The position numbers and the translations under genes are program-made. Positions 31,036 to 40,459 of a stretch of 40,459 nucleotides of DNA are shown piece after piece. Under the pieces are notes generated by a model. The model saw nothing but the letters and a program-made list of their open reading frames with translations, searched no databases and was not told the DNA's origin. The stretch's first letter is position 1; each line of letters starts with the position of its first letter. Source of the DNA: Bacteroidaceae bacterium (GTDB taxonomy: Bacteria; Bacteroidota; Bacteroidia; Bacteroidales; Bacteroidaceae); NCBI GenBank assembly GCA_017555875.1, contig JAFZFN010000031.1:1-40459 (forward strand), in the 5' to 3' direction.

Positions 31036-31144
31036 GAATTGTGAATTATGAATTATGAATTTTGAATTCTGAATTTAGCTCCGTGTTGCTGTCCTTCACA
31101 TCGATGGCCATAATTCAGAATTCAAAATTCAGAATTAAGAATTA
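31036..31144. repeat. GAATTATGAATT inverted-repeat element, copy 1
   Basis: Repeats of AATTATG and AATTTTG run toward the centre and face a complementary arm (31111-31144); about 20 bases pair perfectly. The centre contains GCTCCGTG. The right arm extends into the symporter gene and supplies its last two codons and stop, so the element may have altered that protein's C-terminus. A related copy lies at 37498-37574. Confidence 0.7.
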
Positions 31145-32115
31145 AGCCTTTTTTGTCGCTTCGCCCACACGAATCTGTCGCGCAAGCGGAAGATACCTGC
31201 GGCACTGAGGCCCGCGATGATGTGCCATATGCCCCACCAAGCGGTGACGATGAGCATACCACCATTCTGCAGTTCGGGCGGGAAGATAGCGGGGTTGAAC
31301 AGGAGGATGAGTCCGAGACCCGAGTTCTGGATGCCCATCTCGATGGTGATGGCGCGACGGTCGGGTCGGGGGAGTCCTGACAGCTCACCGAGCCAGTAAC
31401 CGGTGAAGAGGATGAGCCCGTTGTGGATGGCTACGATAACGACAATCCACTTGAGGTACTTGACGAAGATGTCGAAGTTGTTCCAGAACGAGATCACCAC
31501 CATACCCAAGAACACCACGATAGAGAAGTATTGCAAGGGTTTGTTGAGCGCCTTGGCTACCTTGGGAGCGTAGTGTGTGGTGAGCACGCCGAGTGCCAAA
31601 GGCACACCGAGTAGCAAGAAGATGGTGATGAAGATGTCCCATATAGGAATCTGGAGCACTTGCAGGGCATCGGCCGCATGGCGATTGAGGTAGCGCACGT
31701 AGAGGCTGCCCCAGATGGCAAAGTTGGCCGGTGTGGTGAAGATGGCTGCTGTGGTGGTCACGGCAGACATGGATACAGATAACTCGCGGTTACCTCTTGA
31801 GATGGCGGTGATGAAGTTTGATACATTTCCTCCAGGGCAAGAGCCTACCAGTATCATACCCATAGCCACCATCGGGGTGATGTGCTTGTGGAAGATGATG
31901 ATGAGGAGGAAGGTGATGGCGGGGATGATAATCCACTGGCCGATGACACCCACAAGGATTGACTTCGGCTTGCGGAACACATCGGCAAAGGTGCCGGGCT
32001 TGATGCCAAGGGCTACACCATACATCACAATCGCCAAGGCGATATTCAGCAGGTCCATTCCCGACTTGCTGAAGTTGATCTTCACAGGATCAAGGTTTAG
32101 TAGTTGTTCGTACAT
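31135..32115 (-). CDS. Bile acid:sodium symporter family protein
   Basis: A BASS/SBF-family transporter of 326 aa with eight to ten membrane helices, such as LNIALAIVMYGVALGI, WIIIPAITFLLIII and IWDIFITIFLLLGVPLA. The Na+-coupling signature is visible as GSCPGGNVSNFITAISRGN and, later, IEMGIQNSGLGLILLF. Bacterial members carry bile acids, pantoate or other organic anions; the substrate here is not known. The gene follows ackA, separated only by an inverted-repeat element that ends eight bases before its ATG. Its last codons come from another repeat. Confidence 0.9.
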   Translation of the reverse strand: MYEQLLNLDPVKINFSKSGMDLLNIALAIVMYGVALGIKPGTFADVFRKPKSILVGVIGQWIIIPAITFLLIIIFHKHITPMVAMGMILVGSCPGGNVSNFITAISRGNRELSVSMSAVTTTAAIFTTPANFAIWGSLYVRYLNRHAADALQVLQIPIWDIFITIFLLLGVPLALGVLTTHYAPKVAKALNKPLQYFSIVVFLGMVVISFWNNFDIFVKYLKWIVVIVAIHNGLILFTGYWLGELSGLPRPDRRAITIEMGIQNSGLGLILLFNPAIFPPELQNGGMLIVTAWWGIWHIIAGLSAAGIFRLRDRFVWAKRQKRLNS

Positions 32116-32123
32116 GATAGGGA

Positions 32124-32269
32124 GACCCACCTAAATCCTCCCTGCAGGGAGGACTTACCGACAACGCGATAACGTGAGTTTTTTTTGTTAATAGATAGGT
32201 ATTATATTGTGAACTTTGCTTGTCGTGAGGACCAATCCCCCTCCCTCACAGGGAGGGAAGGGGTGGGTC
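32124..32269 (-). repeat. Intercistronic inverted-repeat element A (ackA-symporter gap)
   Basis: A 146-bp element with 8-bp ends GACCCACC/GGTGGGTC, each followed by a hairpin of CCTCCC/GGGAGG. It fills the gap: 10 bases from the ackA stop to the element and 8 from the element to the symporter ATG. It shares CCTAAATCCTCCCTG, GGGAGGACTTACCGACA and TTGTTAAT with element B. A small stem (32157-32170, ACCG/CGAT, one G-T pair) lies near the start-codon side. No ORF or promoter is visible in it. Confidence 0.88.
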
Positions 32270-32279
32270 TTCTCTTAAC

Positions 32280-33473
32280 TTAAAGCAGGTTCATCGTGTC
32301 GGTAGCGATCATCAGCTCCTCGTCGGTGGGGATGACTACGACCTTGACTTTTGACTCGGGGGTAGAGATGACAGCCTCTTGGCCGCGCAGACCCTTGTTC
32401 TTCTCTACGTCGAGTTCTACGCCCATGAATCCGAGGCCTTTACATACGGCTTCGCGAGTGTTGTCTTGGTTTTCGCCCACGCCTCCAGTGAAGAGGATGA
32501 TGTCTACACCGCCCATGGCAGCTGCGTATGAACCGATGTACTTGCGCATGCGGTACTCATACATGTTGAGTGCGAGTGTGGCGCGGGGATGGCCAGCCTC
32601 TACGGCAGCGCAGATCTCGCGCATGTCTGATGACACGCCAGAGATGCCCTGTACGCCAGACTTCTTGTTGAGGAGGTTTGAGATGCCTGTAGCGTCCAGT
32701 CCCTCCTTCTCCATGATGTATGTCACGGCTCCACCATCGATGTCGCCGCTGCGGGTACCCATCATGAGGCCCTCGAGCGGAGTGAGACCCATGCTGGTGT
32801 CAACGCACTTGCCGTCTACGACAGCAGAGATAGATGCGCCGTTGCCGATGTGGCAGGTGATGATCTTGGTGCCTTCGGGCTTGATGCCGAGGTATTCGCA
32901 TACGCGCTGTGACACGTAGCGGTGTGAGGTGCCGTGGAAGCCGTAGCGACGCACGCCGTACTTCTCATACAGCTCATAGGGCACGGCATACATGTAGGCA
33001 TAGTCGGGCATGGTCTGATGGAAAGCGGTGTCAAACACGCCCACCTGAGGAATGTTGGGGAGCAATGCCGAGATAGCGTTCACGCCCTTGAGGTTGGCGG
33101 GGTTGTGCAGGGGAGCGAGGTCGTTGCAGGCCTCGAATGCTGCCAATACCTCCTCATTGAGGAGTACCGACTGGCTGAACTTCTCACCACCATGTACCAT
33201 ACGGTGACCTACAGCGTCGAGCTCGTCGAGTGACTTGATGGCGCCATACTCCTCGCCTGTCAAGGTCTGAAGGATGAACTCTACGCCAGCAGTGTGCTCT
33301 TGGATGTCTTTTTCGAGCACTACCTTCTCGCCATTGGGGAGGGTGAACTTAAGGAATGAGCCAGGAAGGCCAATCTTCTCGATACCGCCCTGTGCGAGTA
33401 CCGATTGGGTGTCCATCTCAAAGAGTTTGTACTTGATGGATGAGCTACCGCAGTTTAATACAAGAATTTTCAT
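32280..33473 (-). CDS. ackA: Acetate kinase
   Basis: A 397-aa acetate kinase that makes ATP and acetate from acetyl phosphate. LVLNCGSSSIKYKL opens the ASKHA fold (residues 3-16); HRMVHGG, the catalytic Asp of GVFDTAFHQTMP, FHGTSHRYVS, CHIGNGASI and FTGGVGENQ are all present. The frame extends to 33491, but that would read into a repeat element; the ATG at 33473 gives the normal N-terminus. It follows pta with only an inverted-repeat element in the gap and should be co-transcribed with it. Confidence 0.97.
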   Translation of the reverse strand: MKILVLNCGSSSIKYKLFEMDTQSVLAQGGIEKIGLPGSFLKFTLPNGEKVVLEKDIQEHTAGVEFILQTLTGEEYGAIKSLDELDAVGHRMVHGGEKFSQSVLLNEEVLAAFEACNDLAPLHNPANLKGVNAISALLPNIPQVGVFDTAFHQTMPDYAYMYAVPYELYEKYGVRRYGFHGTSHRYVSQRVCEYLGIKPEGTKIITCHIGNGASISAVVDGKCVDTSMGLTPLEGLMMGTRSGDIDGGAVTYIMEKEGLDATGISNLLNKKSGVQGISGVSSDMREICAAVEAGHPRATLALNMYEYRMRKYIGSYAAAMGGVDIILFTGGVGENQDNTREAVCKGLGFMGVELDVEKNKGLRGQEAVISTPESKVKVVVIPTDEELMIATDTMNLL

Positions 33474-33484
33474 AACTAAATGAA

Positions 33485-33620
33485 GACCCACCTAAATCCT
33501 CCCTGTGAGGGAGGACTTACCGACATCTCGGTGATTGTGGGATATTTTTTATATGTTAATAATTACTTTGTTTTCAGCGAGCCCTGAATCCCCTCCCTAC
33601 AGGGAGGGTTAGGGTGGGTC
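33485..33620 (-). repeat. Intercistronic inverted-repeat element B (pta-ackA gap)
   Basis: A 136-bp element with the same ends and internal motifs as element A. It starts 6 bases after the pta stop and ends 11 bases before the ackA ATG. The small internal stem is ACCG/CGGT (33519-33532) with loop ACATCT on the plus strand. GC-rich hairpins flank an A/T-rich centre containing GTTAAT. It has no promoter or ORF. Confidence 0.88.
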
Positions 33621-33626
33621 CCCCTT

Positions 33627-34634
33627 TTACTTTGCTGCCTGTGCCTGACAAGCGGTGATGGCCACCATGTTGTACACGTCGTCGATAGAGCAGCCGCGTG
33701 AGAGGTCGTTCACGGGACGAGCGATACCCTGGAGGATGGGGCCGATAGCCTCGGCACCGCCCAAGCGCTGTACGAGCTTGTAGGCGATGTTACCTACCTC
33801 GAGGGTGGGGAACACGAGTACGTTGGCCTTGCCTGCGATCTCCGAGCCGGGAGCCTTGCTGCTGCCCACTGAGGGCACGAGGGCTGCGTCGGCCTGCAAC
33901 TCACCGTCGATCTTGAGCTCGGGAGCGAGCTCCTTGGCGAGGCGGAGCGCCTCAGTCACCTTGTCTACGCACTCATGCTTGGCCGAACCCTTGGTAGAGA
34001 AGCTCAGCATAGCCACGCGGGGATCCTCGATGCCAGCCACGGCGCGGGCTGTCTCGGCGCAGCACACGGCGATCTGTGAGAGCTGTGCAGCATCGGGCAC
34101 GGGAGTCACGGCGCAGTCGCCCATGATGAGCACGCCATTCTCGCCATACTGCGGAGTCTGTGTAATCATTACGAAAGCACCTGATACGCAGCTGATGCCA
34201 GGGGCTGTCTTGATGATCTGCAATGCGGGGCGCAGCACGTTGCCAGTGGTGTTCTCGGCACCGGCGAGCTGGCCATCAGCGTCGCCAGCCTTGATGATGA
34301 GGCATCCGAGGTAGAGGGGGTTCACTACGAGCTTCTGAGCCTCCTCGTAGGTCATGCCCTTCTTCTTGCGGAGCTCCACGAGCAGGTTGGTGTACTCCTC
34401 CTTCTTGGCATGGTTCTCGGGGTCGATGATGGTAGCCTTACCGATGTTGGTGAGGCCCCACTCAGCGGCGAGTCCGTTTACCTTGTCAGGGTTACCGATA
34501 AGAATGATGTCGGCTACCTCATCGGCAAGGAGGCGGTCGGCTGCTCTCAATGTACGCTCCTCAGTAGACTCGGGGAGTACGATGCGCTGCTTGTTGCTCT
34601 TGGCACGCGCAATAATCTGACTTAACAAATCCAT
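33627..34634 (-). CDS. pta: Phosphate acetyltransferase
   Basis: A 335-aa enzyme that interconverts acetyl-CoA and acetyl phosphate, working with AckA in acetate production. This is the short form: only the catalytic PTA_PTB domain, without the N-terminal DRTGG and P-loop regions of E. coli Pta (714 aa). Typical segments are RIVLPESTEERTLRAAD, GLIIKAGDADGQLAGAENTTGN-like, GDCAVTPVPDAAQLS, MLSFSTKGSAKH and the final PVNDLSRGCSIDDV. It is the first gene of the minus-strand pta-ackA group, with a -7 box and two copies of a 17-base repeat upstream. Confidence 0.96.
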   Translation of the reverse strand: MDLLSQIIARAKSNKQRIVLPESTEERTLRAADRLLADEVADIILIGNPDKVNGLAAEWGLTNIGKATIIDPENHAKKEEYTNLLVELRKKKGMTYEEAQKLVVNPLYLGCLIIKAGDADGQLAGAENTTGNVLRPALQIIKTAPGISCVSGAFVMITQTPQYGENGVLIMGDCAVTPVPDAAQLSQIAVCCAETARAVAGIEDPRVAMLSFSTKGSAKHECVDKVTEALRLAKELAPELKIDGELQADAALVPSVGSSKAPGSEIAGKANVLVFPTLEVGNIAYKLVQRLGGAEAIGPILQGIARPVNDLSRGCSIDDVYNMVAITACQAQAAK

Positions 34635-34646
34635 AATGCGTTATAT

Positions 34647-34713
34647 ATTTAAATATGTGTAGTCTTTACAATAATTACGCAAAGGTAAGGCTTTTTATTT
34701 AAATATGTGTGGT
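34647..34713 (-). promoter_or_regulatory. Paired direct repeats around the pta promoter
   Basis: ATTTAAATATGTGTAGT (34647-34663) and ATTTAAATATGTGTGGT (34697-34713) differ by one base and start exactly 50 bases apart. One lies beyond the -7 box toward the -33 region and the other in the leader. Each carries the palindrome ATTTAAAT. The spacing of about five helix turns suggests a regulator binding two sites; no regulator is known. Confidence 0.5.
34680..34687 (-). promoter_or_regulatory. -7 box of pta
   Basis: TACCTTTG on the minus strand matches TAnnTTTG. No clear -33 TTTG is seen at the usual distance; one of the 17-base repeats lies there instead, which may indicate activator dependence. 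Confidence 0.6.
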
Positions 34714-34821
34714 GATGAGGAGAAAAATCGCTTTTTTGCCCCCATTCGTCGTGCCTCATGTGTGACTTTTGAGAGGCTGCTCTTGCGGGGGGCTCCTTGC
34801 GCTCGGCTCTTCATCTCACCT

Positions 34822-35196
34822 CTATCCCAGTCGTGCCATGAACTTCTCGCGGTCTACGACGAATCGGGTGTGCTCTCCCTCGCCTATGATGCCGTCGTCG
34901 TCGGCTGCCGTCACCACGAACTGCAGCTTGCGCCCCTCGATGGCGATGAGCTTGGCTGTGGCGGTGATGTTGCGGCCGTGGGCTGTGGGCTTGAGGTGTG
35001 TCGCTGCGATGTGTCCTCCTACGGTGGTGCTCCCCTCGGGCAGATGTGTCATGACTGCATTCATGGCAGCCTCCTCCATGAGGGCGATCATCGATGGGGT
35101 CGAGAGCACGTGCAGGTCGCCGCTGCCCACGTTGATGGCGAGGTGGCGCTCCTCGATCTTGAGCGAGCTGGTGTGGGTAAGTCCTACTTCTAGCAT
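34822..35196 (-). CDS. Hotdog-fold thioesterase family protein
   Basis: A 124-aa small thioesterase-like protein related to the fluoroacetyl-CoA-thioesterase (FlK) type. LSTPSMIALMEEAAMNAV is the hotdog helix with Thr and Glu, GGHIAATHLKPTAHGRNI the following strand with His, and GEGEHTRFVVDREKFM the C-terminal signature. It should hydrolyse a small acyl-CoA, but the substrate is unknown. The frame is open to 35226, yet the promoter -7 box is at 35224-35231, so the ATG at 35196 is used. It is divergent from the AI-2E-family gene. Confidence 0.85.
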   Translation of the reverse strand: MLEVGLTHTSSLKIEERHLAINVGSGDLHVLSTPSMIALMEEAAMNAVMTHLPEGSTTVGGHIAATHLKPTAHGRNITATAKLIAIEGRKLQFVVTAADDDGIIGEGEHTRFVVDREKFMARLG

Positions 35197-35223
35197 AAGT
35201 CGTGTGTTTGGTGTTGCTGTAGG

Positions 35224-35231
35224 CAAAGGTA
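35224..35231 (-). promoter_or_regulatory. -7 box of the thioesterase gene
   Basis: TACCTTTG on the minus strand matches the -7 consensus, 28 bases before the chosen start. Confidence 0.6.
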
Positions 35232-35261
35232 CTTCGATTTCGGTGAAACTCGAAATTTTTC

Positions 35262-35292
35262 TTGCATTTTTCTCCGCTTTGCTCTACCTTTG
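35262..35292 (+). promoter_or_regulatory. Promoter of the AI-2E-family gene
   Basis: TTG (35262-35264), a 20-base spacer and TACCTTTG (35285-35292). The -7 box is exact, and transcription should start near 35297, so the frame's upstream codons from 35290 are not translated. Confidence 0.7.
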
Positions 35293-35322
35293 CTTCATCA
35301 TCAATGCGAATATCGTGTCATT

Positions 35323-36432
35323 ATGAAAAAGGAGATCACATTTGACCTGTTTGTCCGTGGCGTCATCACCATCGCGGCCTGCGTGGGTGTCTACCTGTTG
35401 GTGCAGCGGCTGAGCGGTGTGTTGCTGCCCTTCCTCATCGCCTGGTTGTTTTGCTACTTGATATACCCCACGGTGAAGTTCTTCCAGTATCGTCTCAGGC
35501 TCGGCCACCGGTTGCTCTCGGCCTTTGTGGTCCTGATTCTCATCGCGGCCCTTCTCGTGGGGGTGGGCTACCTGGTGGTCCCTCCCATCGTGCAGGAGAG
35601 TGCGGTGCTCAAGGAGCTGGTCGTCGGGTATCTCACCTCGGGTGACGACAATGCCTCCATCCCCGATGTGGTGAATGAGTTTGTGCACAGTCACATCGAC
35701 GTGGCCGCCCTCGAGGGCTACTTCTCCATTGAGCGCATCGGCGACCTGGCCAAGGCTGCCCTGCCCAAGATATGGAATGTCGTGACCCAGTCGTTCAGCC
35801 TGCTCTATGGGCTCGTCGCGGTGTTCATGTTCATGGTCTATGTCCTGTTCATCCTCAAGGACTATGAGCGCCTTGCCCGCGGGTGGGTGGGGCTCATCCC
35901 CGAGCGTTATCGCGACCGTGTGGTGCGCTTGGCCGACGATGTCGAGGACAGCATGAGCAACTACTTTCGTGGCCAGTCGCTCGTGGCCCTGTGTGTGGGC
36001 ATCCTCTTCAGCATCGGCTTTGTGATCATCGACTTCCCCTTGGCCATCGGCTTCGGGCTCTTCGTGGGGCTGCTCAATATCGTGCCCTACCTGCAGACCA
36101 TCGCCCTCGTGCCCACGGTGTTTCTTGCGCTGATCAAGGCGGCCAACACGGGCGACAACTTCTGGTGGATACTCGTGGCGGCAGGCATCGTGTTCCTCGT
36201 CGTCCAGGTCATCCAGGAGACCATCCTCATCCCCCGCATCATGAACAAGGTCACGGGCCTCAGCCCTGCCGTCATCCTGCTCTCGCTGTCCATTTGGGGT
36301 AGCCTGCTGGGGCTTGTGGGCATGATCATCGCCCTTCCTGCCACCTCGCTGCTGCTGTCCTACTACCGACATTTCCTGCGCCACCAGGAGAGTGGGGGAG
36401 AGGCCGAAGGTTCCCCGAAACAGGGGCTCTAA
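35323..36432 (+). CDS. AI-2E family (PerM-like) transporter
   Basis: A 369-aa inner-membrane protein of the AI-2E/UPF0118 family. About seven or eight hydrophobic helices are visible, beginning GVITIAACVGVYLLVQRL and LLPFLIAWLFCYLIYP, then a periplasmic stretch and the conserved FGLFVGLLNIVPYLQTIALVP and GLSPAVILLSLSIWGSLLGLVGMI. Members export autoinducer-2 or exchange ions such as Na+ for H+; the substrate here is open. The start is the ATG at 35323, after the promoter. The gene is very G+C-rich, which produces long false ORFs on the other strand. Confidence 0.9.
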   Translation: MKKEITFDLFVRGVITIAACVGVYLLVQRLSGVLLPFLIAWLFCYLIYPTVKFFQYRLRLGHRLLSAFVVLILIAALLVGVGYLVVPPIVQESAVLKELVVGYLTSGDDNASIPDVVNEFVHSHIDVAALEGYFSIERIGDLAKAALPKIWNVVTQSFSLLYGLVAVFMFMVYVLFILKDYERLARGWVGLIPERYRDRVVRLADDVEDSMSNYFRGQSLVALCVGILFSIGFVIIDFPLAIGFGLFVGLLNIVPYLQTIALVPTVFLALIKAANTGDNFWWILVAAGIVFLVVQVIQETILIPRIMNKVTGLSPAVILLSLSIWGSLLGLVGMIIALPATSLLLSYYRHFLRHQESGGEAEGSPKQGL

Positions 36433-36474
36433 ATGAAAAATACAAGGCGAATGGGCAAAAAGATGGCGAAAAAG

Positions 36475-36505
36475 TTTGTAAATTCATAAAATCTCCCTAC
36501 CTTTG
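36475..36505 (+). promoter_or_regulatory. Promoter of tRNA-Lys
   Basis: TTTG (36475-36478), 19 bases and TACCTTTG (36498-36505) match the consensus. The tRNA begins 47 bases after it. The gap 36433-36864 holds this promoter, the tRNA, a terminator and the next promoter. Confidence 0.82.
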
Positions 36506-36552
36506 CACCGCAATTGCAAAACGCATTGCACTGCCTAACGGCACATGAGGTC

Positions 36553-36625
36553 GATTCGCTAGCTCAGCAGGTAGAGCACATCCCTTTTAAGGATGGGGTC
36601 TTGGGTTCGAGCCCCAAGCGAATCA
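36553..36625 (+). tRNA. tRNA-Lys, anticodon TTT
   Basis: A 73-base cloverleaf. The acceptor stem GATTCGC/GCGAATC is perfect, the anticodon arm CATCC-CTTTTAA-GGATG gives TTT, and the T arm is TTGGG-TTCGAGC-CCCAA. The discriminator is A and CCA is not encoded. It has its own promoter and terminator. Confidence 0.95.
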
Positions 36626-36657
36626 CGAAACGTTCAAATTGAATCACATGAAAAAAG

Positions 36658-36694
36658 AGAAGGGGAGTTCGAGAGAACTTCCCCTTCTTTTTTT
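36658..36694 (+). terminator. Terminator after tRNA-Lys
   Basis: AGAAGGGGAGTTC and GAACTTCCCCTTCT form a 13-bp stem with one bulged T and a GAGA loop, followed by a run of seven T. Confidence 0.9.
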
Positions 36695-36770
36695 GTGCCT
36701 CTCGGGGCGTGTCTCTGGACTCATAGCGCTGCTGGTGGGGCGATATATGAAAAAAAATGTCAAAAAATAT

Positions 36771-36801
36771 TTTGTTCTCCGCGCGGCTTGTTGTAACTTT
36801 G
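36771..36801 (+). promoter_or_regulatory. Promoter of the GNAT-argG pair
   Basis: TTTG (36771-36774), a 19-base spacer and TAACTTTG (36794-36801) match the consensus exactly. The leader of about 60 bases contains a small CCTATT/AATAGG hairpin. Confidence 0.83.
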
Positions 36802-36864
36802 CCGCCCTATTATATAGAATAGGTATAGTAAAGATTGTTATTTTAAGCATTAGGACCATTGTAT

Positions 36865-37494
36865 ATGGACACAAACAATATCGTAGTAAAATATGCCAAC
36901 GCTTCGCATGCTCAGTACGCAGAGTATATTTGCCAGTTGATTTACGAATCGGCTCTACAGCGTGGAACAGGTATTGCAAAACGTTCTCCCGAGTACATTG
37001 CCGAAAAAATTAACGGCGGTAAAGCTGTAGTGGCACTTGATGGTGAGAAGCTCATCGGGTTCAGCTACATCGAGAGCTGGAGTCATGGCGACTTCGTGGC
37101 CACCTCGGGCCTCATCGTCGACCCCGAGTACCGCCGCCTCGGTCTCGCCAGCCGCATCAAGAAGAAGACCTTTGAGCTCGCCCGCGAGCGATTCCCCTAT
37201 GCCAAGCTGTTCAGTATCACCACGTCGCTGCCCGTGATGAAGCTCAACACCGCCTTGGGCTACGTGCCCGTGACGCTCACCGAGCTCACGCAGGACGACG
37301 AGTTCTGGAGAGGATGTGAGGGATGCAAGAACTACGACATCCTGCAGCGCAACAACCGCACCCGCTGCCTCTGCACAGGCATGCTCTTCGACCCCAAGGC
37401 CACGCCCGTCGACCCCGACGAGGAGGTCCCCACCATGTCGAAGTGGCAGAACCGCCTGCGCAAGATGCTGGGGCTGAAGAATAAGAAGAAATAA
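36865..37494 (+). CDS. GNAT acyltransferase, probable N-acylglutamate synthase
   Basis: A 209-aa GNAT protein. Motif A is GLIVDPEYRRLGLASRI (residues 82-98), with RRLGLA as the acyl-CoA pyrophosphate loop. The C-terminal part has a CxxC (151/154) and a CxC (168/170) that could bind zinc, which is unusual for a GNAT. It lies directly ahead of argG. I infer that it makes N-succinyl- or N-acetylglutamate, the first step of the acylated arginine pathway, since no classical argA or argJ is visible and the next acylated steps (argB, argF') are in the window. As I recall, the equivalent gene beside argG in Bacteroides thetaiotaomicron was linked to this step by mutant fitness; I am not certain. A TTG at 36859 is an unlikely alternative start. 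Confidence 0.75.
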   Translation: MDTNNIVVKYANASHAQYAEYICQLIYESALQRGTGIAKRSPEYIAEKINGGKAVVALDGEKLIGFSYIESWSHGDFVATSGLIVDPEYRRLGLASRIKKKTFELARERFPYAKLFSITTSLPVMKLNTALGYVPVTLTELTQDDEFWRGCEGCKNYDILQRNNRTRCLCTGMLFDPKATPVDPDEEVPTMSKWQNRLRKMLGLKNKKK

Positions 37495-37497
37495 GTT

Positions 37498-37574
37498 AAA
37501 TTATGAATTGTGAATTATGAATTATGAGTTAAGGCTCCGCGATGTTTGCGCAATTCAAAATTCAGAATTATAAT
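37498..37574. repeat. GAATTATGAATT inverted-repeat element, copy 2
   Basis: AATTGTGAATTATGAATTATGA faces CAATTCAAAATTCAGAATTA, with GGCTCCGCG in the centre, resembling the copy at 31036-31144. It lies directly after the GNAT gene, and the next repeat element follows within 20 bases. Confidence 0.65.
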
Positions 37575-37591
37575 AAGAAATAATATTGGGA

Positions 37592-37706
37592 AGATAAAGG
37601 AGATAAAAGGAGATAATCGCTCCGCTCTTTAGGGAGATAAAGGCCAATAGCTTTATCGCGCGTAAGGACATTTGGCATTTAACTCCATTTATCTCCCTTT
37701 AACTCC
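37592..37706. repeat. GGAGATAAAGG inverted-repeat element, copy 2
   Basis: AGGGAGATAAA (37631-37641) faces TTTATCTCCCT (37688-37698), with extra tandem GGAGATAAA units to the left and AACTCC units to the right. The core TTATCGCGCG followed by ACATTTGGCATTTA matches copy 1 at about 24 of 29 positions. It ends 21 bases before argG. Together with the preceding repeat it makes up nearly the whole GNAT-argG gap; I see no promoter there. Confidence 0.75.
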
Positions 37707-37727
37707 TTAACTACAAAAATAAGACCT

Positions 37728-38933
37728 ATGGAACAAAAGAAGAAAGTCGTTGTCGCCTTCAGTGGCGGACTCGACACCTCATACACCGTGATGTACCTGA
37801 CCCGCGAGATGGGCTACGAGGTGCATGCCGTGTGTGCCAACACGGGCGGATTCAGCGAAGAGCAGCTCCGCACCAACGAAGAGAATGCCTACAAGCTGGG
37901 CGCAGTGAAGTACATGACGCTCGACGTCACCCAGGAGTACTATGAGAAGAGCCTCAAGTATATGATATATGGCAACGTGCTCCGCAACAACTGCTACCCC
38001 ATCTCGGTGAGCTCAGAGCGCATCTTCCAGGCGCTGGCCATCGCGCGCTATGCCAAGGAGATCGGCGCCGACGCCATCGCCCACGGCTCCACAGGTGCCG
38101 GCAACGACCAGATCCGCTTCGACATGACCTTCCTCGTCATGGCTCCCGGCATCGAGATCATCACCCTCACCCGCGACAAGACCCTCACCCGCAAGGAGGA
38201 GGTCGACTACCTCAACGCTGGCGGGTTCAATGCCGACTTTGCAAAACTGAAATACTCATACAATGTAGGTATCTGGGGCACCAGCATCTGCGGAGGCGAG
38301 CTGCTCGACTCCAACCAGGGCCTCCCCGAGTCGGCCTACCTCAAGCACCCCACCAAGGAGGGCCCCGAGCTCCTCAAGCTCGGCTTCACCAAGGGTGAGC
38401 TCAGCTCCGTCAATGGCGTCGAGTACACCGACAAGATCAAGGCCATCCAGGCTGTCGAGGAGATAGGCGCAGCCTACGGCATCGGCCGCGACTGCCACGT
38501 GGGCGACACCATCATCGGCATCAAGGGCCGCGTAGGCTTCGAGGCCGCAGCCCCCATGCTCATCATCGCCGCCCACCGCTACCTGGAGAAGTACACCCTC
38601 TCCAAGTGGCAGCAGTACTGGAAGGACCAGGTGGCCAACTGGTACGGCATGTTCCTCCACGAGAGCCAGTACCTCGAGCCCGTGATGCCCGACATCGAGG
38701 CCATGCTCACCAGCTCGCAGCGCAATGTCAATGGTGTGGTCACCCTCGAGCTCCGTCCCCTCGGCTTCCAGACCGTAGGTGTCGACTCCAAGGACGACCT
38801 CGTGAAGAACAAGTTCGGCGAGTACGGCGAGACCCAGAAGGGGTGGACCGCCGAGGAGGCCAAGGGATTCATCAAGGTGAACTCCACCGCCCTGCGTGCC
38901 TACTACGCCTGCCATCCCGACGAGGAGAGATAA
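37728..38933 (+). CDS. argG: Argininosuccinate synthase
   Basis: A 401-aa ATP-dependent ligase joining citrulline and aspartate. VVVAFSGGLDTSYTV is the PP-loop (residues 7-21), CANTGG and AIAHGSTGAGNDQIRFD are the next conserved sites, and DCHVGDTIIGIKGRVGFEAAAPM is a family signature. The length is normal. The gene is strongly G+C-rich with C-ending codons. It shares a promoter with the GNAT gene unless the repeats between them provide one, and it ends at a very strong terminator, so argC, argD and argH are not part of this operon. Confidence 0.97.
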   Translation: MEQKKKVVVAFSGGLDTSYTVMYLTREMGYEVHAVCANTGGFSEEQLRTNEENAYKLGAVKYMTLDVTQEYYEKSLKYMIYGNVLRNNCYPISVSSERIFQALAIARYAKEIGADAIAHGSTGAGNDQIRFDMTFLVMAPGIEIITLTRDKTLTRKEEVDYLNAGGFNADFAKLKYSYNVGIWGTSICGGELLDSNQGLPESAYLKHPTKEGPELLKLGFTKGELSSVNGVEYTDKIKAIQAVEEIGAAYGIGRDCHVGDTIIGIKGRVGFEAAAPMLIIAAHRYLEKYTLSKWQQYWKDQVANWYGMFLHESQYLEPVMPDIEAMLTSSQRNVNGVVTLELRPLGFQTVGVDSKDDLVKNKFGEYGETQKGWTAEEAKGFIKVNSTALRAYYACHPDEER

Positions 38934-38954
38934 GGCCTTGAATACGAGAAATCC

Positions 38955-38988
38955 AAACACCCAAGCCCGACGGCTTGGGTGTTTTTTT
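38955..38988 (+). terminator. Terminator after argG
   Basis: AAACACCCAAGCC and GGCTTGGGTGTTT form a perfect 13-bp stem with a CGAC loop and a run of T residues. Confidence 0.95.
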
Positions 38989-39012
38989 CGTTTAAGAGTT
39001 AGGAATTGTTAA

Positions 39013-39123
39013 TTAATTTACGCAGCTTGCCACCCCGAGAGCGCCAGCCAAGGCGGTGAGCACTGCGATTAATACTTTGAGAAAGGAGCCCCAATCAAAG
39101 GAGACATTTGCTTTATTCTGCAT
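39013..39123 (-). CDS. Smalltalk-type small protein
   Basis: A 36-residue protein: a charged start (MQNKANVSFDWGSFLK), a hydrophobic stretch (VLIAVLTALAGALGVA) and the end SCVN. It fits the 'smalltalk protein' family of Bacteroidales, tiny proteins of 30-36 residues found next to HU-like genes. A single membrane helix or a lipoprotein-like SC end is possible; the function is unknown. It lies 100 bases after the HU-like gene on the same strand, with a short repeat element between. In many genomes an N-acetylmuramoyl-L-alanine amidase gene follows; here argG and its terminator lie beyond instead. Confidence 0.8.
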   Translation of the reverse strand: MQNKANVSFDWGSFLKVLIAVLTALAGALGVASCVN

Positions 39124-39165
39124 ACTTTAGTTGTGTGTTTAGTGATAAATACTTAGTTTAATCTA

Positions 39166-39221
39166 CCCACCCCGTCAGGCTCTCCCCATAGAGGGGGAGA
39201 AACCCGAAGGGAGAGGGGGTC
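39166..39221 (-). repeat. Short inverted-repeat element between HU and smalltalk
   Basis: A compact relative of elements A-C: on the minus strand GACCCCCTC at one end, a CTCCCC/GGGGAG-type hairpin with an ATAG loop, and GGGGTGGGT at the other. It starts two bases after the HU stop and lacks the A/T-rich interior. The distance to the smalltalk start is 42 bases. Confidence 0.65.
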
Positions 39222-39223
39222 TA

Positions 39224-39640
39224 TTACGGCATCAAGTCGGAGCTCACGCGCTTCAGCTTGACATTGGGGATGACGGACTTCTTGAGCTTCGCCTCGGGCT
39301 GGAAGCGGATGCGGTAGCCCTTGATCATGCTCGCGGGGACGAACTCCTTGTCGCTGAGCGCCTCGGTGGGGTAGCACTTGCCAGTCATGCTCATCACGAG
39401 GGCGCCGAGGTCCTGGAGCACTACGCGGCGGCCATTGAGGAGGGCGCGCTGGATGAAGGGTTTCATACTGGTGAGCACGGCCACTGCGTCGGCCTTGGTC
39501 ACGGTGGTGCTCTGGGCGATGTCCTCAGCGAGCTCGTCGAACTCATAGTTGCTGGTCTTCACAGCTACGGCGTGGCAGTAGGTCTTGCTCTCGTCGCCCT
39601 TGGGGTTCTTTACTTTGGTGATTTTGTAGGTGATTGCCAT
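39224..39640 (-). CDS. HU-family DNA-binding protein
   Basis: A 138-aa histone-like protein of the Bacteroidota type, longer than classical HU (about 90 aa). Motifs are ITYKITKVKNPKGDESKTYCH at the N-terminus, the helical pair ELAEDIAQSTTVTKADAVAVL and the dimer strand GRRVVLQDLGALVMS. The usual HU arm sequence is replaced by a different beta segment, and the C-terminus ends basic and polar (LKKSVIPNVKLKRV). It is followed by a smalltalk gene and preceded by a leader consisting almost entirely of element C. Its binding specificity is unknown. Confidence 0.9.
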   Translation of the reverse strand: MAITYKITKVKNPKGDESKTYCHAVAVKTSNYEFDELAEDIAQSTTVTKADAVAVLTSMKPFIQRALLNGRRVVLQDLGALVMSMTGKCYPTEALSDKEFVPASMIKGYRIRFQPEAKLKKSVIPNVKLKRVSSDLMP

Positions 39641-39652
39641 GATTTTGAAATG

Positions 39653-39826
39653 GACCCCCTCTAACTCCCCCTCTATGGGGAGGACTCCGACATCGCGGAG
39701 GTTTTCAAGGAGGATTTTGTTAATGGTTTAGGTTTTAATTCAATATTTTACGTTCTCTCTAGGGAATCTCTCTACCCAAGCCGCGGTTCTTGAGTTCTCC
39801 CCCTAGAGGGGGAGCTAGAGGGGGTC
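39653..39826 (-). repeat. Inverted-repeat element C (HU leader)
   Basis: A 174-bp member of the element family, with ends GACCCCCTCTA and TAGAGGGGGTC, CTCCCC/GGGGAG hairpins, GGGAGGACTCCGACATCG and TTGTTAATGG. It ends 12 bases before the HU start, and the other end is 18 bases from the -7 box, so it forms most of the 5' leader. The small stem is TCCG/CGGA (39686-39699), with one pair changed in both arms relative to element B. Confidence 0.8.
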
Positions 39827-40240: not shown

Positions 40241-40260
40241 TGCGCCACGCGAGGCGAAAG

Positions 40261-40451
40261 TCCGAAGTCCGAAGTCCGAAGTTACCTGCGCTGTGGTCGT
40301 TTTTTTTCGCGAGTGAGCACTATAAAAAAAGAGGCTTATTTAAGTATTATATATACTACGTATATCTAATACAAAAATAAGGATTTTTTTACCTCATCCT
40401 TTTTGCGCCATCTCGGAGCGCGGAATATAACTTCGGACTTCGTACTTCGGA
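40261..40451. repeat. TCCGAAG inverted-repeat pair
   Basis: Three tandem TCCGAAG units (40261-40281) face CTTCGGA-CTTCGTA-CTTCGGA (40431-40451) as an almost perfect inverted pair, enclosing 149 bases of A/T-rich sequence with no ORF. The layout resembles a miniature inverted-repeat element. Confidence 0.65.
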
Positions 40452-40459
40452 CCTTGCAA

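Follow-up and report, generated by a model that had tools for sequence, protein, structure and literature searches.

A 40,459-nucleotide contig of a Bacteroidaceae bacterium (GenBank assembly GCA_017555875.1, contig JAFZFN010000031.1; the whole contig is hereafter the window) carries three palindromic elements, A, B and C, two of which are fitted tightly into the gaps on either side of the acetate kinase gene ackA. What these elements are, and how they come to lie between neighboring genes, is the question that this locus raises. A sequence-only reading of the window had suggested a spreading 5'-leader module, arguing that elements that merely hop would not be expected to fit so exactly between cistrons. 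Here, we report that A, B and C belong to a dispersed family of two-armed palindromic elements, and that genes encoding the domain of unknown function DUF559 are strongly and locally associated with inverted palindromic arms in several phyla. We consider it probable that the family is mobile and that these three copies of it are non-autonomous, with DUF559 as the candidate partner nuclease that moves cognate arms. The evidence for a partnership between DUF559 and the arms is statistical, and a role of DUF559 in moving the elements is our inference.

32124..32269, minus strand: element A, gap form (an arm and its inverted counterpart around an AT-rich spacer), between the ackA stop and the start of an SBF-family symporter gene; RNA fold z -4.9
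33485..33620, minus strand: element B, gap form, in the gap between the pta stop and the ackA start; RNA fold z -7.1
39653..39826, minus strand: element C, gap form, lying upstream of the gene for an HU-HIG DNA-binding protein
39166..39221, minus strand: element D, solo or degenerate arm of related type; the stop codon of the HU-HIG gene at 39224-39640 is 2 bases away

A dispersed palindrome in two forms

The positions first assigned to A, B and C were confirmed, and in each of these full copies two arms face each other as inverted repeats across a spacer rich in AT (GC averages 0.29 in 24 gap copies). An arm of a full copy has GACCCACCC or GACCCCCTC as its outer end and a sequence near GACATCGCGG as its inner core, together with a GC-rich hairpin. 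The short fourth form D is also real: it is a single arm of a related type that, compared by eye, resembles the right arm of L047:2495-2618.

As the sequence-only reading had proposed, the genome and its relatives were searched with a covariance model, termed R1, built from A, B and C. In the 78% complete assembly to which the window belongs, R1 gave 98 matches at E <= 10 with both strands counted (a first scoring took 150 of 193 candidates). Collapsing these matches and re-searching the fetched stretches together with the window yielded 55 places, from which opposite-strand duplicates and C41:735-809 (E 9.8) are left out. Since copies outside the model set reached E values of 1.4e-24, 6.4e-23, 9.8e-21 and 1.5e-19, the family extends beyond chance. 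At E <= 0.001, matches occurred in 11 of 12 genomes of the same genus and in one of eight other genomes of the order. The related genome G009 gave 85 matches on both strands, of which 30 places were studied.

Individual motifs proved less general than the arms. The shared core noted at the outset, GGGAGGACT(N0-3)CCGACA, is exact in A, B and C but nowhere else in the genome, where C25 holds a copy with one mismatch; its sole exact match among the relatives, in G007, lies in sequence without visible arms. Likewise, the internal GTTAAT (read as ATTAAC on the strand of the element) occurs in A, B and C but in just five of 24 gap copies when these three are included. The core GACATCGCGGA taken alone had 10 exact genome matches against one in the control, seven of them within listed elements, and is too weak on its own.

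Context classes were assigned to the 55 places of the own genome and the 30 of G009. Gaps between co-directional genes accounted for 20 and 13 places and the remaining classes for 16 and 5, while 31 of the 85 places (19 and 12) lay inside long open reading frames (ORFs) with the frame open, some of them in unnamed hosts such as L053 that may not be genes. Short copies, with a model match of at most 112 nt, were in ORFs in 22 of 26 cases and longer copies in 9 of 59 (Fisher p 1.3e-9), an association that is partly built in, as the ORF class requires an open frame by definition. The compact ORF form is spacer-free. In the 19 of 22 short ORF copies examined the host frame was open; one host-strand frame was left open in 16 of the 19 and two in 3. 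These copies encode peptides like KTHPNPPCEGG...VLPHREDLGGS, similar from both orientations. At L059:2923-3102, a further insertion splits the right arm of a compact element of 180 nt, and the frame is still open. Of 24 gap copies, 21 contained stops in every one of the three frames; this set of 24 comprises 22 of the 26 tandem-gap copies (those between co-directional genes) oriented with their genes, together with C and L040:4525.

The gap form is mostly close-fitting and mostly oriented. For the stop side and start side, respectively, the spacing in bases is 6 and 11 for B and 10 and 8 for A. Both distances were short in 22 of 33 tandem-gap copies (0-12 on the stop side, which is counted one higher than from coordinates, and 3-15 on the start side). 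Orientation with the genes was found in 26 of 33 (p 0.0013), i.e., 16 of 20 in the own genome and 10 of 13 in G009 (p 0.09), and A and B are among them; the earlier statement that all elements read the same way thus holds for most tandem-gap copies in the two genomes, not for all. ORF copies were oriented with their host in 22 of 31 cases (p 0.03). The genes in the window that surround the elements are as follows.

33627..34634, minus strand: pta, phosphate acetyltransferase (Pfam PF01515)
32280..33473, minus strand: ackA, acetate kinase (Pfam PF00871)
31135..32115, minus strand: SBF-family sodium symporter (Pfam PF01758)
39224..39640, minus strand: HU-HIG domain protein (Pfam PF18291)

Other inverted pairs with quite different arms, of GAATTAT, GGGAGTTAAAGGGAGATA and CGAAGTCCGAAGT types, lie in the window at 31044-31143, 520-611, 37596-37708 and 40257-40455.

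Hosts of ORF copies that could be named with Pfam include RNase HI, ValS (with two inserts), ABC-F-like, radical SAM (YgiQ-like), LPG-synthase/GNAT, glycogen synthase and UvrA-type domains. In L052 (1878-3395) the element stands between ThiE and ThiD domains, and in L066 (1287-3662) between HisD and aminotransferase (HisC-like) domains; at such junctions, read-through elements may fuse neighboring genes. Two comparisons with solved proteins were set aside as proof of extra sequence. Against 1gax, ValS insert 1 falls in an alignment break and insert 2 in a wholly unaligned stretch, and the solved glycogen synthase is longer in the region of the insert (66 versus 38 residues). Because both comparisons show variable regions, they prove little about the inserts.

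DUF559 genes between inverted arms

One locus of the own genome (L048:11074-11585, also L116) looks like an autonomous copy: R1-type arms lie on either side of a DUF559 gene, which reads in frame into an aconitase-family (leuC-like) gene. DUF559 (PF04480, matched above the cut-off) is related to Vsr-like nucleases, and its solved relatives are 3hrl, at E 1e-27, and 3r3p (2.4e-6), recorded as a "Mobile intron protein", which we take to be I-Bth0305I.

To quantify the association, 300 nt on each side of DUF559 were aligned in inverted orientation, and loci were termed flanked at a score of at least 12, a value picked after inspecting the result for the order and phylum. Shifted windows served as control; they were added because a control in which flanks were swapped between loci is inflated by arms common to several loci. 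Among 50 loci from the order and phylum (Bacteroidota), DUF559 was flanked by inverted arms in 41, compared with 2 of 95 shifted windows, and hairpins stood on both sides in 34, against 0 of 95. In named GTDB genomes, split by phylum according to record titles with two Balneolaceae assigned to Bacteroidota, arms flanked 41 of 51 Bacteroidota loci (7 of 186 controls) and 25 of 27 loci from other phyla, including Nitrospirae, Deltaproteobacteria and Patescibacteria (4 of 98 controls). At a score of 14, the corresponding values were 37/50 versus 1/95, 38/51 versus 0/186 and 20/27 versus 1/98. Left out for short flanks were L145 from the order and phylum set and L199 and L219 from the GTDB set. 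Because L160, L162, L163 and L170 are the same contigs as L125, L127, L118 and L128, the counts of the two sets must not be summed. Flanked loci from isolates, such as Bacteroides acidifaciens DSM 15896 and B. cellulosilyticus DSM 14838, indicate that the association is not an artifact of metagenome-assembled genomes.

Arms and nuclease also vary together. Across 19 loci (without L119, an unflanked partial match, and L124, a near-duplicate of L123), arm similarity tracked DUF559 similarity with a Mantel r of 0.59 (0 of 5000 permutations), and with an unpermuted r of 0.46 once same-host pairs were removed. A second DUF559 gene of the own genome (C38) has two pairs of arms around it that belong to a different family, which has 16 exact genome matches against 0 in a reversed control; 12 of the 16 are in inverted pairs, one pair of them inside an ORF. 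Like the arms, DUF559 occurs within long frames: open frames of at least 300 codons contained 9 of 21 matches in the order and 12 of 30 phylum loci, with LeuRS, HsdR, MetH and a SpoIID-like protein recognized by eye among the hosts, and sometimes the whole cassette is in frame within a longer ORF. In L123 and L124 (G008 and G011), an aminotransferase-like gene (DegT-type, by eye), a DUF559 cassette and extra arm-like peptides share one open frame, with tandem repetition in L124.

These observations suggest a possible cycle. DUF559, a predicted nuclease, would recognize its cognate arms and cut or nick DNA; arm pairs, with or without the DUF559 gene, would be copied to new sites, gene-less copies being moved in trans; and selection would retain the copies that fit gaps or stay in frame. 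Several results weigh against this proposal. Inspection by eye of the ValS and ackA sites revealed no target-site duplication. Nine of the 50 order and phylum loci and 12 of the 78 GTDB loci scored below 12, and only 12 of 30 phylum loci reached the 95% point (17) of the harsher flank-swap control. Furthermore, the arm of a third own-genome DUF559 (C9) was found as an exact pattern, among the collected loci, only at its own locus, and G009, G003 and G012 have R1 matches but no DUF559 match in assemblies that are 76, 88 and 87% complete.

Orthologous sites and competing explanations

Sites orthologous between species differ in what they hold. At the first ValS site, an R1-type element is present in the own genome, palindromes of other arm families in G012 and G004, and an inverted repeat of a different kind in G001; a short non-palindromic linker is found in G010, G006, G007 and G002 and another linker in G003, G008, G011 and G005, with no match obtained in G009. 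The second site, compared in full for the genomes named here, has the R1 type in common between G000 and G009, another family in G010 and no element in G006, G012, G007 and G001. The pta-ackA gap is arm-free and 25-64 nt long in G002, G011, G012, G003 and G008, whereas G005 has other sequence there, 156 nt in length, and G001, G007 and G004 have other arm families. Although the flanks of this gap are 97.6% (G001) and 99.2% (G012) identical, the gap itself holds a 150-nt element in the former and 46 unrelated bases in the latter. In the gap between ackA and the symporter, GAATTCT-type arms were seen in G001, G004 and G012 and TTAGGAATTAGGAGTT-type arms in G010.

The idea that the spacer is native gap sequence between arms was tried on two gaps, pta-ackA and one from G009/G000. 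Most pairs failed, the better ones being G007 versus G011 (6 of 500 shuffles) and G007 versus G002 (12 of 500), and the idea is not supported, as unrelated spacers reach the same scores. Orthologous spacers between different arms (B versus G001, 41; B versus G007, 42) also score within the range of unrelated ones (up to 42), such that arm replacement in place is not distinguishable from independent insertion.

With these data, the exact fit loses its force as an argument against hopping, since 31 of 85 places are in open frames of long ORFs and the orthologous gaps of sister species lack the element or hold other arm families. What stands of the leader proposal is a dispersed, gap-fitting and oriented sequence. 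Retention of the gap form for the effect of its RNA fold on stability or translation of the downstream gene would agree with the orientation of tandem-gap copies, the strong folds of A and B and the repeatable short distance to the ATG, yet we regard a leader or intercistronic RNA module as unlikely in essence. The same arms lie inside ORFs, whose copies share the orientation bias, so that orientation is not special to leaders, and orthologous gaps manage without the element or are filled by other arm families in sister species. An Rfam scan of the window returned two tRNAs and no known structured RNA or riboswitch for the elements, and no terminator-like sites were found in A-D. The Bacteroidales promoter motif TAnnTTTG is absent from the 24 gap copies; promoter and terminator scans were at the level of shuffled sequence, with a single weak promoter-like match inside C (39774-39745, minus strand).

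Inverted palindrome pairs also resemble dimers of repetitive extragenic palindromes (REPs), as in REP/REPIN systems, and the REP-associated tyrosine transposase (RAYT; HUH, Y1_Tnp) that would move them could be hidden in the missing part of the 78% complete assembly. We judge this improbable: DUF559 lies between R1-type arms, PF01797 had no match in the own genome at E <= 0.001, and of its matches in 5 of 12 same-genus genomes four are weak and partial in long frames. One Y1_Tnp gene (L077, in G011:C12) is flanked by inverted repeats, the one clear case among six Y1_Tnp loci (L080 scored 15), but its repeats look by eye like another family; it is possibly a separate RAYT-type system in the same genus. 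A comparably small chance attaches to a miniature inverted-repeat transposable element (MITE) of an unseen insertion sequence, with DUF559 as a mere passenger that landed between repeats. Size and terminal inverted repeats are MITE-like, most copies lack any gene, and the transposase search covered Y1_Tnp alone; a passenger, however, accounts poorly for an association that recurs across phyla, is local to the gene and shows arms co-varying with DUF559. Finally, removal of ORF inserts from the product by RNA splicing, protein splicing or ribosome bypass seems very improbable, even though the hosts include conserved enzymes and the arms form strong hairpins: compact copies keep the host frame open, which would be unneeded if the insert were removed, and at about 30 residues the insert is far too short for an intein.

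Relation to known repeats and biological meaning

The best reading is a system like REPs or the Rickettsia palindromic elements (RPEs) with an unrelated nuclease partner. RPEs are short palindromes in frame inside ORFs of many unrelated genes, for which the accessible part of the source names no enzyme (PMC10969869). The likeness considered is one of layout and consists in the in-frame insertion into ORFs of unrelated genes also seen here; the family described here differs in its separate, mostly oriented gap form and its associated nuclease gene. REPs are described as singlets and dimers close to genes and sometimes inside ORFs (PMC3733652). REP/REPIN-RAYT systems share dispersed palindromic units, alone or as inverted dimers, and an enzyme gene flanked by its own repeats; here the candidate enzyme is DUF559, with a Vsr-like PD-(D/E)XK nuclease domain, rather than an HUH tyrosine transposase, and no cognate repeat-flanked HUH Y1 transposase was found in the 78% complete own genome. 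Bacterial MITEs are likewise short and dispersed, with terminal inverted repeats and strong hairpins, but no target duplication was seen by eye and the transposase search, limited to Y1_Tnp, gave no parent insertion sequence. The profile match of DUF559 to 3r3p, by its record name a mobile-element nuclease, recalls Vsr-like homing endonucleases. Homing endonucleases copy into one allelic site, whereas the arms are at many unrelated sites. In Caulobacter, DUF559 marks a Vsr-like protein (PMC12907096).

As RPEs and intragenic REPs are already known, in-frame palindromes as such are not new. The nuclease partner and the pairing of gap and ORF forms were not found in the accessible open-access literature, which leaves out most subscription papers and all preprints; no record examined there linked DUF559 to palindromic repeats. 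A broader proposition, on which we are nearly evenly divided and lean slightly against, is that DUF559 constitutes a second, non-HUH class of REP-type mobilizing enzyme across many phyla, each with cognate arms, whose read-through elements colonize coding sequence in frame, fuse neighboring genes and drive genome-wide turnover of arms.

To our knowledge, the spread of palindromic repeats that lack a known transposase has no established explanation, and DUF559 between cognate arms in several phyla offers a concrete candidate partner. If true, this would give a widespread domain of unknown function a possible role, would account for odd linker peptides in annotated proteins, and would provide a route by which adjacent genes become fused.

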